Shown: positions 49,540 through 57,610 of the stretch, in pieces
Layout: every line of letters begins with the position of its first letter
Numbering within the stretch: position 1 is the stretch's first letter
Assembly: GCA_003134685.1 (NCBI GenBank)
Contig: PLCA01000008.1
Span: 73,185-137,184 of the forward strand
DNA length: 64,000 nt
DNA from: Gemmatimonadota bacterium
GTDB taxonomy: Bacteria; Gemmatimonadota; Gemmatimonadetes; Gemmatimonadales; Gemmatimonadaceae
Direction: 5' to 3'
Notes under the pieces: generated by a model
What the model was told of the DNA's origin: nothing
Databases searched by the model: none
What the model saw: the letters and a program-made list of their open reading frames with translations, nothing else
Translations under genes and position numbers: made by a program

Positions 49540-49845
49540 CTATCCGAGGTTGCGGGTGCTGCCGCCCGCGTCGAAATCGTGCTTGACGACGCGTACAATC
49601 TCTGCTGGGGCGATGCCCAGGACGTCGCGGGCAACGACGCTTCCCGGGCTCACCGAATCATCGACGACCAACACCGCCAGCTCGTGACGCCGGGGGCCGT
49701 AGACCCAGACGAGCTCGCCGTCCTCGAGCAGACGCCGGCGCGCATCGCTCGGGTGCAGCCGAACGAGTGGCCCGCGCTCGGAATCACCGGTGCGCGTCGA
49801 GATGTATCGCGAGACCATCAGCCACGGCTGGAACCCCTCCATCAT
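49540..49845 (-). CDS. Small protein resembling a molybdopterin-dinucleotide-binding/double-psi barrel domain
   Basis: A 101-residue protein. The stretch VRLHPSDARRRLLEDGELVWVYGPRRHELAVLVVDDSVSPGSVVARDVLG follows the strand and turn pattern of the C-terminal MGD-binding barrel of molybdoenzymes and related double-psi barrels (polar start, DGELVWV, then xxVxPGxV). No molybdoenzyme is encoded nearby, so if the fold is right it is a stand-alone version. The ATG at 49845 overlaps the upstream stop as ATGA. The fold assignment is by eye and tentative. Confidence 0.65.
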   Translation of the reverse strand: MMEGFQPWLMVSRYISTRTGDSERGPLVRLHPSDARRRLLEDGELVWVYGPRRHELAVLVVDDSVSPGSVVARDVLGIAPAEIVRVVKHDFDAGGSTRNLG

Positions 49846-50429
49846 GCGTCGAGTCTCGTCGCCTGCGAGGGAATCGTGGCGCTTCCGACGGCGACATACG
49901 CATTGTCGTAGCGAATCAACAGCCGCCGGCGCCACAGCGTGTCGAGCATTCGCTCGGCGTCGGCGCTCGATAGTCCGATCGCATCCGCGACGTCAGCGCT
50001 GACACCGGTGCCCAATTGCGAGATTATCTCCCACGCCCGCCGCTCCTCGAGGCCGACAATCCCGATCAGACGCGACTCACCATCAGCGTGTTGGGTCACC
50101 AGAGCCAGTTTGTGACGCTCCAGCACCGCTTCGATCGCCTCCATGTGCGACTCGCTGATCCCGCGGAACACGAAATACACCTCACGGCGCGGAGCATCGA
50201 TGCTCACGTACTGCAACAGCAGTTTTGCTACGATCTCGTCGGCGCAGGAGAAATCGAGCAGCCCGACGTGCGAGAAGTCGATTATCGTGAGCGCCCGGTC
50301 GCCAATGCGGTCGAGCTCCTGCTCTATCTCGCATCGAACCGCCGCGCCTGTCGGACGCGTAACGAGGTTCGAATAGAGCTCGCAAACGCTCTTGCGAAGC
50401 ATCGAGCTCACATCGATGTGATTTATCAC
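49842..50429 (-). CDS. STAS-like (DUF4325-type) protein with winged-helix C-terminus
   Basis: A 195-residue protein from the GTG at 50429, which overlaps the upstream stop as GTGA. The N-terminal part (about 1-110) contains ALTIIDFSHVGLLDFSCADEIVAKLL, the strand-loop-helix of STAS/DUF4325 domains, with Ser in DFSCAD at the position phosphorylated in anti-sigma-factor antagonists. The C-terminal part (about 125-185: RRAWEIISQLGTGVSADVADAIGLSSADAERMLDTLWRRRLLI) looks like a winged helix. It follows a STAS-ATPase gene, which suggests a kinase-substrate pair. DNA binding is inference. Confidence 0.75.
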   Translation of the reverse strand: MINHIDVSSMLRKSVCELYSNLVTRPTGAAVRCEIEQELDRIGDRALTIIDFSHVGLLDFSCADEIVAKLLLQYVSIDAPRREVYFVFRGISESHMEAIEAVLERHKLALVTQHADGESRLIGIVGLEERRAWEIISQLGTGVSADVADAIGLSSADAERMLDTLWRRRLLIRYDNAYVAVGSATIPSQATRLDA

Positions 50430-51313
50430 GCCACGCGCTCCGGAATCGTTATCTGCACCTGCGCCCCCGGAAAGTATGAGAGGTCCTCTACCAGCGGCTC
50501 GTCCTCGTCCCAATCGCCCTTGGGAAGCACAGCAATGCGGGCGGTGCCACTTCTGATGGAAAGTTTACCATCCCAGTTTCCAACAAAACGCCTCACTCCG
50601 GCAAGGCCTTGACCTCGGCCGGGATCCCTGAACCGGGATGCCCCGCGCATGACGGTCTCCTCCAACGCCTGCCCATCGTCCCAGCGGTCCTTCCTCTGAA
50701 ATCCCGGCGCCGACTCGAGCGACTGCCTGAATCCAATTCCCGGATCCGCGACCGCGATGACCACGACCTTGCGCCCGCCGAGGCGAACGCGCCAGGTGTA
50801 CGTCTGCACGGCAACCCAGCCGCCGCGGCCGGCGTGCTCGACGATGTTCTGGCAGACTTCCGATAGCGCCATCGTGAACCGCATGGTGATCTTCGCGTCG
50901 AGGTTCAGGTTCTTCACCAAAGCGTCCTGAGCTCGCTGCTGGATCTTGTCGACGACGCTATGGACGTCGTCGCTCTTGGAGATGGACGTAACCTCGAGAA
51001 GCACGCTCGTCTCCGCCGCCTTGGTGCTCTTCACACGTCCCTGCAGCTCGTACAGCTCGGCTGCGTGCTTGAAGAAATCCATCCTCGACCAGTACGTGCT
51101 GACGTTCTCCGCCTCAGGGACATACAATATCGGCCTCTCCGCGCGGGACTGCGCCAGCGCCAGCAGCGCCGTCAGGCCGTACGGGGACGCCCACCGCGCG
51201 TGCCTCGTGTCGACGATGATTTTCTCGTCGAGCGGCAGCGGTGCGACCTGATCCAGCACCTGCTCGAAGGACTTGTCCTCGAGCGAGTGTGGAACGTTGA
51301 TGATTGTCGTCAC
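50426..51313 (-). CDS. STAS-like/GHKL-ATPase fusion, anti-sigma-factor-like kinase
   Basis: A 295-residue protein. The N-terminal 90 residues (EKIIVDTRHARWASPYGLTALLALAQ) resemble a STAS-like fold. From about 115 on there is a HATPase domain with N-box ALSEVCQNIVEHAG, G1 box VADPGIGF and a second glycine box GRGQGLAGVRRFV. No histidine phosphotransfer or receiver domain is present, so it resembles SpoIIAB/RsbW-type kinases rather than sensor kinases. ATGA overlaps link it to the PfkB gene before it and the STAS gene after it. A partner-switch role is inferred. Confidence 0.82.
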   Translation of the reverse strand: MTTIINVPHSLEDKSFEQVLDQVAPLPLDEKIIVDTRHARWASPYGLTALLALAQSRAERPILYVPEAENVSTYWSRMDFFKHAAELYELQGRVKSTKAAETSVLLEVTSISKSDDVHSVVDKIQQRAQDALVKNLNLDAKITMRFTMALSEVCQNIVEHAGRGGWVAVQTYTWRVRLGGRKVVVIAVADPGIGFRQSLESAPGFQRKDRWDDGQALEETVMRGASRFRDPGRGQGLAGVRRFVGNWDGKLSIRSGTARIAVLPKGDWDEDEPLVEDLSYFPGAQVQITIPERVA

Positions 51314-52308
51314 TTGATGCTGAGCTCTCCGCGCAGGTAGTCGGCGAGACCGGTAGCGCCGCGATGGTCCACGTTCAGGGAAGCCGCGTCGAGTGCGCGG
51401 TCGATTGCTGCGTCTAAGGTATCACCCGCCAGGAGGCGGGAGAAATAGGTTGCGCCCCACACATCTCCGCAGCCTATCGGATCTCCCGGCCCCGGATGGC
51501 GTCGAGGTTTTGCCGGAACTAGCGCGGTGCGGATCGCGCCCGCGGGAAAGCCGAGAATCGGGCGCTGCACGTCGGAGATTCGATCGAAGCCCGAAGCGGC
51601 GAAGTAGACCACGCCGCGACTGCCGAGCGTAATGGCTATCGAGGAAACGCCCTCTGCAAAGGCGATAGCAGCCAAGGCCATCGGGTCGCTAGCCATCATG
51701 CTCATCTCGTCTTCGTTTACCTGGATCAAGTCGAAGCACCGGCACCACGCGGCGGGATTCGGGAGCGGTTGCAGCGCCCTCATTCCATCAGGTTGGACCG
51801 CCAGCAGCAGCGAGTGCAGATCGCAGTAGATCGGACCGCGGAAATGCTGCCTGATGAGCTGCGCCGTTTCGAGATCGAGCTCGAAGCCGCTGATCAGATT
51901 GATGTAGAGCGCGTCGAGATCGGTGAGGAGAGGCTTCAGGCCCAACCAGCTCCATCTGGGAACGCCGCCGCTCAGCCGCTCGCAGCGGCGCTCGTCGCTC
52001 AGGTAGTGAAGCGCGACACGATTGTTCGGGTGGGGCACCTCGATCGGAGCTGCATCCGGCGCGGCGCGGTCCAGGTTGGCGACGAATTCCCGAGCAGACT
52101 GCGCGAGATCGCTGCCGACCTTGAGGATCGGAACAAACTCCCAAACCGCTGGAAGCGCGGCCTCGAGCGCGCCGAGCGCATAGGTGATCCCACCCCATTC
52201 TTCGACGGGCGCGTCCCGCGGATCGCGTCCGTGAATCACGTCCCAGACGAAACTGCCCATTACCCCGACGCGCTTTTTTCGCGGCTTCGAGTTTCCGTGG
52301 GCCATCAC
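51310..52308 (-). CDS. PfkB-family carbohydrate/nucleoside kinase
   Basis: A 332-residue ribokinase-fold enzyme. The N-terminal VGVMGSFVWDVI and EEWGGITYALGALEAAL match the substrate-binding part. The C-terminal GPGDPIGCGDVWGATYFSRLL holds the anion hole and catalytic Asp of PfkB signature 2. The substrate (sugar, nucleoside or sugar phosphate) cannot be assigned. The ATGATG start abuts the ROK-kinase stop, and the stop overlaps the STAS-ATPase start, so its translation is tied to both. Confidence 0.88.
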   Translation of the reverse strand: MMAHGNSKPRKKRVGVMGSFVWDVIHGRDPRDAPVEEWGGITYALGALEAALPAVWEFVPILKVGSDLAQSAREFVANLDRAAPDAAPIEVPHPNNRVALHYLSDERRCERLSGGVPRWSWLGLKPLLTDLDALYINLISGFELDLETAQLIRQHFRGPIYCDLHSLLLAVQPDGMRALQPLPNPAAWCRCFDLIQVNEDEMSMMASDPMALAAIAFAEGVSSIAITLGSRGVVYFAASGFDRISDVQRPILGFPAGAIRTALVPAKPRRHPGPGDPIGCGDVWGATYFSRLLAGDTLDAAIDRALDAASLNVDHRGATGLADYLRGELSIK

Positions 52309-53307
52309 CTACAGCTCGCCCAGCTTCTGCATCTTGAAAGTTGCGATCGCACCGACGACGCCGGCGGAGAGGGGAAGCGCGCCCGGAACGATGCGGCACG
52401 CTTCGACCGCGGGCTTGAATGCGCGGCGCTTCACCTCTGCGCGCAACGGTCGGAAGAGCGCGTCTCCCGCCTGAGTGACGCCGCCCGCGAGCACCACGGT
52501 ATCCGGATTGAACATGTTGAGGAGATTCGACACGCCTGCCCCGAGAAAGCGAGCCGTCTCGCGCACGACCTCTCTGGCGGTCGAGTCGCCGCGCTTCGCG
52601 GCCTCGTAGACGGTCTGCGCAGTGATCTTGCGCAGATCGCCGTCGACCATGCTCACAATTATGGATTCGCTCTCGTCCCCGCGCAGCGCTTCCCGCGCGC
52701 GCTCGGCGATCGCCGGCCCGGAAGCGTAAGCCTCGAGGCATCCGTAGTTCCCGCATTTGCAGCGGCGTCCTGTGGAATCGATCGTCGTGTGACCGATCTC
52801 TCCCGCCACATCAGATGCGCCGTGATACAGTTTGCCCTCGAGGATTATTCCCCCGCCGATTCCGGTACCGAGCGTCATCCCGATCACGTTTCGGCCACCT
52901 ACCGCGGCGCCGCACCAGAACTCGCCGAGCGTCGCGCAATTGGCATCGTTGTCGAGGGTGGCTTCGAGATGCACCCGGCTCGAGATCTCGTCGCGCAGCG
53001 GAAAATTCTTCCACCCAAGGTTTGGTGTCACGATGACGACGCCCTTCTCGCGATCGAGCGGGCCGGGCGATCCAATGCCGACACCCAGAAAATCGGAGCG
53101 CTCCGCACCCGTCTCCGACATCGTCTGCGCGATTACCTGCTCGATCATTCCCGCGATTCGATCGACGACCGAGGCGGCTCCACCGTCAGCGAGTGTCTGC
53201 GTGGTGTGCATGGCGATCTCGCGGCTACCATCGAGCGGCATCGCACCGGCAACGATGTTGGTTCCGCCCAGATCCACTCCGACGATGTAACGCTCCTTCA
53301 CGCTCAT
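52309..53307 (-). CDS. ROK-family sugar kinase (glucokinase-like)
   Basis: A 332-residue ROK kinase. The phosphate loop is VGVDLGGTNIVAG, the second motif GVGIGSPGPLD, the catalytic Asp region LDNDANCATLGEF, then TLGTGIGGGII, and the ROK zinc motif GHTTIDSTGRRCKCGNYGCLEAYAS (HxnCxCGxxGCxE). It most likely phosphorylates glucose or N-acylmannosamine-type sugars. The ATG at 53307 overlaps the glycosyltransferase stop as ATGA; a longer frame to 53424 would run back into that gene. Confidence 0.93.
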   Translation of the reverse strand: MSVKERYIVGVDLGGTNIVAGAMPLDGSREIAMHTTQTLADGGAASVVDRIAGMIEQVIAQTMSETGAERSDFLGVGIGSPGPLDREKGVVIVTPNLGWKNFPLRDEISSRVHLEATLDNDANCATLGEFWCGAAVGGRNVIGMTLGTGIGGGIILEGKLYHGASDVAGEIGHTTIDSTGRRCKCGNYGCLEAYASGPAIAERAREALRGDESESIIVSMVDGDLRKITAQTVYEAAKRGDSTAREVVRETARFLGAGVSNLLNMFNPDTVVLAGGVTQAGDALFRPLRAEVKRRAFKPAVEACRIVPGALPLSAGVVGAIATFKMQKLGEL

Positions 53308-54332
53308 ACGGGCACCGATGGGTTGAGGACTTCCGTCAGCAGGCTCGAGATGTAGTCCGGCGTCAGCTCGCGCATGCAGCGCCAATGTCCGAGCGGACAC
53401 CGCTGTGGTCCGTGTCGATCGCACGGACGACAGGACAGGCTGTCATTTCCCGCGACCGCGCTTCTCTCGGCGAGAGGACCAAACCCGAACTCCGGCACCG
53501 TCGGGCCGAAGATCGTGACTGTGGGCGTTCCCATTGCCGATGCAAGATGCTGCGGTGCCGAATCATTCGTCACTATCGCTTGCGCGCGGCCAATCAGCTC
53601 CGCCGACGCCAGCAGCGGCAGAATTCCGACCGCATTGATCACCGTGTCCGGCGGCAGCGCTTCGGTTATCTGCGCCGCAATCGCGGAATCGGCCTTCGAC
53701 CCTATGACGGCGATCCTGAAGTCGTCGGCAAGCAGCTTCGCCAGCTCGACATAGTATGGCCACCGCTTTGTTCCCCAGGCACTGCCCGGCGCGAGGGCAA
53801 CGAACGGCTCGTCGGTGCTCCGGCTCTGGCGCAGCAACGAGTCGACCATGCGTCGGTCCTCGTCCGACGGGTACAGGCGCGGCCGGACCTGGTCGCGCGT
53901 AGGAGGATCCGCGCAATCCGACATCGATAGCGACCACAGTCGCTCGACGTGATGCCGGTCGGGCCGGTAAGGAACCTGAATCGTGTAGAGCACTCGTCCA
54001 GTGGAGCTTCTAAATCCGATTCGCTCCTTTGCGCCGGTCATCATGGCGATGAGCCCGCTGCGGAACGAGCCCTGCGCAAGGTACGCGGCTTTGTAAGGGC
54101 GCCTGCCGCGGATTTCCTGGATCGTTTGCCACATTCCGACCGCCGCTCCGTAAGTCCCACGCTTGTCGTAGCGGATGACGGTGCGAATGTCCGGATTGTT
54201 GGCGAGAGCGGCCGCGCCACCGGGAGTGACGAGGACGTCAACCGTCCCGCGCCGGGCCAACTCGGCGATGAGCGGCGTCGTGAGAATGACGTCGCCGAGA
54301 AAGCTCGTCTGGATAACGAGCGATCCGCCCAC
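53304..54332 (-). CDS. Glycosyltransferase family 9 (ADP-heptose:LPS heptosyltransferase-like)
   Basis: A 342-residue GT9 protein. The N-terminus SLVIQTSFLGDVILTTPLI is the typical opening strand and helix, and the C-terminal half has APGSAWGTKRWP, VTNDSAPQHLASAMGTPTVTIFGPT, and a Cys-rich tail (CRPCDRHGPQRCPLGHWRC) of the type seen in WaaF-like enzymes. It should add heptose or a related sugar to the LPS core at the inner face of the inner membrane. The GTG at 54332 abuts the lepA stop. It is the second gene of the lepA run. Confidence 0.9.
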   Translation of the reverse strand: MGGSLVIQTSFLGDVILTTPLIAELARRGTVDVLVTPGGAAALANNPDIRTVIRYDKRGTYGAAVGMWQTIQEIRGRRPYKAAYLAQGSFRSGLIAMMTGAKERIGFRSSTGRVLYTIQVPYRPDRHHVERLWSLSMSDCADPPTRDQVRPRLYPSDEDRRMVDSLLRQSRSTDEPFVALAPGSAWGTKRWPYYVELAKLLADDFRIAVIGSKADSAIAAQITEALPPDTVINAVGILPLLASAELIGRAQAIVTNDSAPQHLASAMGTPTVTIFGPTVPEFGFGPLAERSAVAGNDSLSCRPCDRHGPQRCPLGHWRCMRELTPDYISSLLTEVLNPSVPV

Positions 54333-56129
<1,797 letters not shown>

Positions 56130-56210: not shown

Positions 56211-56245
56211 AAAAAGAAAGAGGGCTGCTTTCGCAGCCCTCTTTC
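56211..56245 (-). terminator. Rho-independent terminator of the DUF4384-type gene
   Basis: On the minus strand a perfect 13-bp stem GAAAGAGGGCTGC/GCAGCCCTCTTTC (56245-56216) with a four-base GAAA loop is followed by TTTTT (56215-56211). It lies about 30 bases after the stop at 56272 and separates this gene from lepA. Confidence 0.9.
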
Positions 56246-56271
56246 TCGAATCAGTGTGTCTACGCTTATTG

Positions 56272-57594
56272 CTAGTTCGGCGGAGGAGCGCGAAGCGGCT
56301 CCGACTTGGTAATCGGTGTCACTACTCGTGGTGGCGGAGGCGGCGGTGTGGAAGTCGGTTCATGCACCACCGGTGGTGGAGGTGGAGATTGTCTTGGCGG
56401 GTCAGCAACGTGGACTGGCGGCGGCGCCGCAGAGCGCGGCTCGGGCCGGTACTCGCGGAGAGGTTGCGACCCGGTCGCTGCTGTTGGTTCCCCGCGCGGT
56501 GCTGTGACGCGCTCGATCGGGACTCGACCCGGCGGGGGCGACATCGTTCCGGACTGTGGCCGGTAGCCCTGAAGAATCTGGCCCGGCTCGGAACGGCGCC
56601 TTCCGGGAGCCGTGATCGTCACGTCGCCCAGCTGAGGAAGTCCGGAGCGTTGCGGCAGCGGAAAGACTCCCTCCGGAGCTGTACTCCGACCGGACTTAGG
56701 GGGACGCAGTGGCTTGGGATGCTGAGGGAACCGATACTTGGGAAATCCGGTCGTGTCGCCCGGAGGCCGCGGCGATATCGGCGGACGCCGCCCGGCTACC
56801 CTCAACGGAGCGATCGCGATTATCGGAGAGCCGCAAATGTCGTAGCCGAGGATTCTGACCTGCTGGCCGTGCGACCTGAGCTGCCCTATGCGGTTGAACG
56901 CCTGAAAGCGATTGAATGCCAGAGTCGGAGCGAACGCGTAGCCGTAGTACAAATCGCATGAAGAGTAAGAGCCGAGCGCGTAGCCGGCGTACCGGTTGCC
57001 GGAGAAGCGCATGTAGTCCCGTCCGATCGGCTCGCCTTTGGCGCCCAGATAGCTGGCCAGCGCCCCCTCGGCAGACTCCGGACTCCGGCCCTCGATCAGC
57101 CCTCTGATCGCCGAGATGTTCCAGTCGCCGTCTCGCTCGATCAGATCCAGGTTGAACGGTGCCCGCGAAGCAAGCGCTATCACCGTGCCGCGCGAATCCA
57201 TGTAACCGTCAGCGTAATTGCCGTAGCCGGAGTTGGAAGCCGAGGAGTAGTACCCACCTCCATCGTTCGGCTGCGCAAAGCCGGCGAAGAAATTGGGAAG
57301 GTTGAGCTGCTTGTGGGCGAGGATCCGCACCGAAATGCCGGGGAAATCGGGGTGCAGAACCTGGATGCGTCCGTCGACATCCATCGAGACCGCGAAGATG
57401 TAGGCGTTCTCCGAGACGTCTATGACGGGAGTCACATAGCTCGTGGTCTGGAGGGCGTAGGAGCCGTTCGAGGAATAGACCCGGATTATTGGGGCTCGCT
57501 GCCGGGCTGTCTCCTGCGCTCCGGCGACTGAAGCGATTGCGCACAGTAGTAACGAGGAAGTACCCACCGCCGCCGCCAATCTTGTCGCTCGCAT
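56272..57594 (-). CDS. Secreted proline-rich protein with DUF4384-like domain
   Basis: A 440-residue protein from the ATG at 57594, which has GGAGG five bases upstream. A Sec signal ([20 protein letters not shown]...AGAQ) is followed by a beta-rich region (about 35-105: [30 protein letters not shown]) resembling DUF4384. A middle part rich in Tyr/Ser/Gly has [22 protein letters not shown] and a CDLYYGYAF element. The last 180 residues are disordered-looking and Pro/Arg-rich, ending in runs such as PPPPPPRVV. It probably sits in the periplasm or on the outer surface. Function unknown; it is a single-gene unit with its own terminator. Confidence 0.78.
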
Positions 57595-57610
57595 ATCGAC
57601 CTCCACGGGT

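Follow-up and report, generated by a model that had tools for sequence, protein, structure and literature searches.

The 64,000-nucleotide stretch analysed here (the window; a soil bacterium of the Gemmatimonadaceae, Gemmatimonadota, contig PLCA01000008.1 of assembly GCA_003134685.1) carries on its minus strand, at 49540-53307, a run of five genes for a ROK-family kinase, a PfkB-family kinase, an ATPase with an N-terminal STAS domain (STAS-HATPase), a STAS-winged-helix protein (the partner) and a small double-psi-barrel-like protein. The STAS-HATPase and its partner belong, almost without exception, to the core gene set of a whole class of Gemmatimonadota, and they probably form a kinase/STAS switch, whatever its output. 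A fuller reading is advanced tentatively, at somewhat under even confidence: a switch between a serine kinase and a STAS protein, like that of SpoIIAB and SpoIIAA, with the partner acting on transcription through its winged helix. What was observed is that the two genes are conserved together across the class and lie close to each other, that the kinase motifs are intact and one serine is invariant, that the structures are akin to those of known switch proteins, and that the two parts are fused in relatives. An earlier note, made from the letters of this DNA, had described the run; its observation was confirmed, its functional reading was partly supported, and the phylogenetic depth proved unusual.

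Distribution and gene neighborhood

The ATPase was found in 279/298 and the partner in 280/298 genomes of the phylum, normally as a single copy each. Both were missing from all six genomes of a sister family outside the class (f11). Neighborhoods were compared at 60 loci (L040-L099) from seven families, chosen for long contigs and family spread and not at random. ATPase and partner genes were direct neighbors on one strand at 56/60 loci, with a 4-nt overlap in most, and a single cyclophilin gene lay between them at the remaining four (f6). This survey had been suggested by the earlier note, and no scattering of the genes among relatives was seen in it. Both sugar kinases were encoded upstream on the same strand at 57/60 loci, and the ROK-PfkB-ATPase-STAS block was contiguous at about 54. 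Conserved as it is across the class, the block lies far beyond chance.

The remaining neighbors differed in their reach. Of the ties to lepA, lipopolysaccharide glycosylation and ftsEX that had been proposed, the one to lepA was steady (upstream, same strand, 57/60 loci) and the others were lineage-restricted: ftsEX followed downstream only in families f1-f3, and a family 9 glycosyltransferase (GT9) gene stood between lepA and ROK mostly in f1-f3, with lepA directly abutting ROK at many f5 loci. The barrel gene was present at 21/21 f1 loci and at 0/39 loci of other families. What truly holds together as a unit is the pair, in most cases joined by both kinases, and the barrel, GT9 and ftsEX genes are local neighbors. 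Two broader groupings were ruled out: the five-gene set as one module, by the confinement of the barrel to one family, and a general tie to ftsEX or GT9, by lineage restriction. A locus of Gemmatimonadota type (61% identity) was also seen in a record titled Candidatus Kuenenia stuttgartiensis (L173), which is probably a mislabelled bin.

Conserved order alone is no proof of function, and the order could reflect an ancient lepA operon in which the switch proteins are housekeeping passengers, unrelated to their neighbors or to each other, as the three lineage passengers just named indeed are. This explanation is very remote, since the switch proteins are fused elsewhere and form independent pairs in other phyla.

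The STAS-HATPase

The STAS-HATPase (50426-51313, minus strand, GTG start, 295 amino acids) combines a degenerate N-terminal STAS domain with an ATPase/kinase domain of the SpoIIAB/RsbW type. The latter matched HATPase_c (3.3e-8) and HATPase_c_2 (PF13581; 5.5e-7, 30.1 bits against a cut-off of 27.4), both over cut-off. Both STAS domains of the pair are too divergent for detection from a single sequence, and their calls rest on scans of orthologues (n = 31), in which the N-terminal domain of the ATPase matched STAS_2 (PF13466) in 12/31 (best 3.6e-4). Searches of PDB sequences with single sequences gave nothing useful for either protein. AlphaFold models were therefore read alongside the profiles (ATPase from 71 sequences, predicted local distance difference test (pLDDT) 85.1; partner from 58 sequences, pLDDT 87.5).

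The model of the ATPase domain matched SpoIIAB best (Z 14.3/14.1/13.9; best match 135 residues, 2.7 A), followed by RsbW (Z 12.3), UsfX (12.1), SiaB (9.8) and histidine kinases (no higher than 9.2). The fold was matched by GHKL ATPases of other kinds too, MutL among them, ranked well below SpoIIAB and RsbW. E152, N156, H160, D190, G192, G194, G234 and G236, which make up the N-box, DxGxG and G2 glycine positions, were invariant in 131 orthologues; E152, the predicted catalytic base, lies in the N-box SEVCQNIVEH (codon 50858-50860, minus strand). E152 was likewise retained in relatives from Nostoc, Pseudomonas and Phaeobacter, and the catalytic E/N/H/D/G residues as far out as the plasmid-borne relatives of Nostoc and Pseudomonas. 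A kinase-competent ATPase of anti-sigma type, as proposed earlier, is supported by these data: the Mg/ATP motif residues are intact and the closest folds are SpoIIAB and RsbW, not histidine kinases. In the ATPase's own STAS domain the position equivalent to the phospho-serine varies (Y, F, N, A); therefore, this domain is probably no substrate.

Some further observations concern this protein family. A partial match to the DISARM protein DrmA (PADLOC, 1.2e-9) was rejected, as it covered positions 97-246 of a 1750-position profile. The window's own genome (G000 in the comparison set, 3.63 Mb) encodes a canonical stand-alone RsbW-like ATPase (G000:C12:608207-608581; 79 bits to HATPase_c_2). One close relative (L006, G136:C205) has an ATPase gene with an in-frame stop, split into two matches, which points either to misassembly or to a broken copy.

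The STAS-winged-helix partner

The partner (49842-50429, minus strand, GTG start, 195 amino acids), the predicted phospho-target, was assigned from orthologue profiles and its model. The window protein itself had no match to DUF4325 (PF14213), falling under cut-off; among its orthologues DUF4325 matched in 6/31 (best 0.0086), STAS_2 in 2/31 and TrmB in 5/31 (best 1.1e-4). In the other direction, when run on a small test set, the partner's own profile picked up DUF4325 proteins with E-values of 1e-12 to 1e-6. The partner was filed as DUF4325-like and not as a DUF4325 member. In the model, its STAS part resembled the STAS domains of RsbR/RsbS and SLC26 (Z about 10) and SpoIIAA (8.9), and residues 124-185 resembled the winged helices of MarR, ArsR and TrmBL2 (Z 8.6-10); several of these STAS and winged-helix matches were tied, and only the fold class is claimed. 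With these profiles, orthologues and models, the earlier domain calls for all five proteins were borne out.

Residues T24, R25, T27, G28, R32, D59, S61, C62, A63, D64 and E65 were invariant in 119 partner orthologues. The potential phospho-serine of the earlier note is among them: Ser61 (119/119; motif LDFSCADE, codon 50247-50249, minus strand) lies in the loop that precedes helix 2, where STAS antagonists have their phospho-acceptor, and is the predicted phospho-acceptor here. The serine is also retained in DUF4325 relatives (SFADE or SFxDE). Phosphorylation of the conserved STAS serine has been reviewed (PMC8256260), and SypA Ser56 has been modelled against the N-box Glu48 of SypE (PMC10120452).

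The same residues could belong to a GHKL ATPase that works as a conformational machine or scaffold with no kinase activity, Ser61 being structural. The match of MutL-type ATPases to the fold and the location of Ser61 inside an invariant SCADE motif are compatible with this; however, MutL and histidine kinases come well after SpoIIAB and RsbW as matches, and neither the N-box glutamate nor the STAS-loop serine ever varies, as would be seen for a kinase and its substrate such as SypE and SypA (PMC10120452). A role of this kind is improbable.

The partner is cut down to its STAS domain (about 120-148 amino acids) at L080, L128, L042 and L046-L049, the winged helix having been lost in at least two lineages.

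Fusions and relatives elsewhere

Single-chain open reading frames with a STAS-HATPase-DUF4325 layout were found at four loci of the same phylum (L181, L182, L184, L185) and in Nostoc commune (L214), and the profiles of both window proteins matched the same reading frame in all five; E-values for these and the other fusion or pair relatives come from small sets. The two proteins most likely interact, because they are found fused elsewhere. The four Gemmatimonadota fusions occur sporadically within the class, alongside the core pair. Split pairs were also seen in two further genomes of the phylum (L183, L186) and on plasmids of Pseudomonas sp. BYT-1 and Alicyclobacillus, the latter two with a 102-amino-acid 'STAS-like' partner. 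A Nostoc linckia plasmid (AP018224) has an equivalent two-gene pair including the winged helix, with the ATPase profile matching end to end (110 bits) and the partner profile across STAS and winged helix (41 bits). In IMG/VR, neither the window ATPase nor that of Nostoc had a close relative. The pair is thus one case of a wider, unnamed and mostly accessory system, which in this class is core.

Near accessory ATPase relatives on plasmids of Phaeobacter, Pseudomonas and Rhizobium (L211, L212, L213) lie, variously, a restriction gene (DraIII) accompanied by an N-6 methylase, a gene for a DNA adenine methylase, and one for a NACHT protein. The accessory forms may be linked to defence.

In the titles and abstracts of literature on DUF4325 or the 'STAS-like domain', nothing functional appeared for such a pair. 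Literature retrieved with STAS, winged helix, HATPase and partner switching combined held no description of a STAS-HATPase/STAS-winged-helix system, and that on Gemmatimonas, glucokinase and STAS held nothing relevant.

Proposed mechanism and output of the pair

We propose that the STAS-HATPase and the partner are the two halves of a SpoIIAB-SpoIIAA-type serine-kinase/STAS switch. The ATPase would bind ATP and Mg, dock on the partner's DUF4325-like STAS domain and phosphorylate Ser61. Its own STAS domain, which has no conserved phospho-acceptor, would probably serve docking or regulation. Phosphorylation would toggle the partner between a kinase-bound and a free state. Once free or modified, the partner may then, in most lineages, control transcription directly through its winged helix, with no sigma factor involved; the simplest target would be the operon that encodes it together with the sugar kinases. 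This step is the weakest of the proposal.

Partner switching is best known as the control of alternative sigma factors. Of the partner switch proposed in the earlier note, the kinase/STAS pairing was supported by fusions and intact motifs, and a linked sigma factor, which the note had advised looking for, was not supported, as none is encoded at the locus and no sigma factor of the SigB/F/G type passed its family cut-off in the genome. In classical partner switching, the ATPase would be the anti-sigma factor of a distantly encoded sigma factor, with the STAS protein antagonizing the ATPase. This would fit the closest structural relatives of the ATPase, which are the anti-sigma factors SpoIIAB, RsbW and UsfX. 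The sigma-factor results just given speak against it, the RsbW-like ATPase at G000:C12:608207 would be a better candidate for that role, and the antagonist here has its own DNA-binding domain; such an arrangement seems decidedly improbable.

Several findings weigh against transcriptional control through the winged helix or against the wider proposal. Conservation within the partner is lowest in the winged helix (mean top-residue frequency 0.46, and 0.40 in the recognition helix, vs. 0.72 in the STAS core). The winged helix is missing in 7/119 orthologues, with no space for a separate winged-helix gene before the next known gene. DNA binding therefore cannot be the universal output. The locus has no known phosphatase, and none of the Foldseek E-values of the full-length ATPase model was below 0.001. 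The pair and the sugar kinases are also separable in some lineages. In f8 (G096, G177), lepA-ROK-PfkB is present in a divergent form without the pair, G177 having the pyridoxal-phosphate (PLP) enzyme directly after PfkB. G253 has lepA-PfkB only. In the f6 lineage, the pair occurs while the kinases lie at a distance or at another place; in G031 of this family, the contigs that carry PfkB and ROK (the latter with lepA) differ from that of the pair. In view of these separations, the sensing role proposed earlier for the sugar kinases stays conjectural. Most other genomes that lack the pair also lack the kinases, and this joint lack may reflect assembly gaps.

Evolutionary rates were compared given lepA distances in 46 genomes, a weak test. 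Excess correlation was found for ATPase/partner (0.30, 0/500 permutations), PfkB/ROK (0.43), ATPase/ROK (0.30) and ATPase/PfkB (0.18). The partner had no excess correlation with the kinases (0.06, 0.01), which also counts against the proposed link to them. The arrangement looks like two sub-modules sharing one operon.

The same phospho-switch may instead control an enzyme by protein binding, for example the neighboring ROK or PfkB kinase, with the winged helix a secondary and variable add-on. SiaC, which acts on a diguanylate cyclase, offers a model, and SiaB is among the structural neighbors of the ATPase. Enzyme control would suit a STAS core and kinase motifs that are invariant beside a winged helix that is variable or lost, two kinases directly upstream in almost all loci, and the ATPase/ROK and, weakly, ATPase/PfkB rate correlations. 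It is opposed by the missing partner/kinase correlation, by the f6 genome G031 with its pair apart from ROK and PfkB, and by the kinases without a pair in f8; on balance this output is rather unlikely. One form of transcriptional control, a sigma-free partner switch whose phosphorylated STAS antagonist, by its fused winged helix, is itself a transcription factor, serving as a class-wide core regulator wired to cytoplasmic sugar phosphorylation, is possible but doubtful.

The operon and its other genes

Gene coordinates, strand and order were as first described. The earlier note had joined all five genes by ATGA/GTGA overlaps, and this held except between ROK and PfkB. ROK ends at 52309 and the PfkB GTG lies at 52308, so that the two genes abut, the sole junction without overlap from GT9 to the barrel gene. 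GT9 and ROK share an ATGA (53304-53307), PfkB and the ATPase a GTGA, the ATPase and the partner a GTGA (GTG at 50429), and the partner and the barrel gene an ATGA (ATG at 49845), all four being 4-base overlaps.

The longer run to which these genes belong lies wholly on the minus strand. It begins with lepA (54333-56129, named from sequence), the constant upstream neighbor, followed by GT9 (53304-54332; PF01075, 2.1e-34), a variable insert between lepA and ROK. Upstream, a perfect 14-nt inverted repeat with a 4-nt loop (56215-56246) lies between the gene at 56272-57606 and lepA; it probably terminates the former gene and marks where the lepA operon starts on its 5' side. In a search for operators, only a terminator-like hairpin before lepA came up, and promoter-like matches in the region were weak. 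The small barrel protein (49540-49845, ATG start, 101 amino acids; PF01568 Molydop_binding, 1.2e-8) is a family-restricted passenger, and the run continues past it with a Cys/Met-metabolism PLP enzyme and then ftsE and ftsX, both named from sequence.

The ROK-family hexokinase (52309-53307, 332 amino acids; PF00480, 1.2e-71) scored 250.5 bits against the glucokinase model TIGR00744, under its cut-off of 260.35, and is hence called glucokinase type only; it matched the PDB glucokinase 2qm1 at 3.2e-58. The Asp of its DNDAN motif and the CxCGxxGCxE zinc motif were retained across 110 orthologues. The PfkB-family kinase (51310-52308, start GTG 52308 or ATG 52305; PF00294, 3.7e-8, 33.5 bits against a cut-off of 25.8) retained the catalytic Asp of GxGD in 118/118 orthologues and had no close relative among solved structures. 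A second PfkB of the same group stands alone, without the pair, on plasmid 1 of Gemmatirosa kalamazoonensis (L216, 5857-6972), about 3 kb from genes that read like arabinose isomerase and arabinofuranosidase.

Comparison with known systems

The kinase/STAS pair described here is a core trait of its class, stands next to sugar kinases without a sigma factor linked to it, and has a target with, in most cases, a DNA-binding domain of its own. Finding what it does in a cultured strain of Gemmatimonas would open a first way into the DUF4325 systems.

With SpoIIAB-SpoIIAA and RsbW-RsbV the pair shares the N-box and G-box ATPase residues, a STAS partner with a phospho-serine loop, and adjacent genes. 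Unlike them, the kinase here has an extra N-terminal STAS domain, the partner is DUF4325-like with a winged helix, and the locus has two sugar kinases and no sigma factor. SiaB-SiaC of Pseudomonas aeruginosa (PDB 6kko) is similar in its HATPase kinase (Z 9.8 to the ATPase) and SpoIIAA-like partner, but has neither winged helix nor N-terminal STAS domain and lies in another operon. The stressosome (RsbR/RsbS-RsbT) has a STAS fold among the best partner matches (Z about 10); in contrast, a multi-copy complex or sensor domains are not indicated for this pair. The ROK kinase is like ROK glucokinases in its catalytic and zinc motifs and its match to 2qm1 (3e-58), but falls just under the TIGR00744 cut-off. 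The DUF4325 (PF14213) systems, annotated as 'STAS-like domain-containing protein' and 'ATP-binding protein', have the same set of STAS-HATPase and DUF4325 protein, both parts being homologous by profile; whereas these are sporadic, often plasmid-borne and mostly without a winged helix, the pair here is core to its class, split into two genes and set in a fixed operon.

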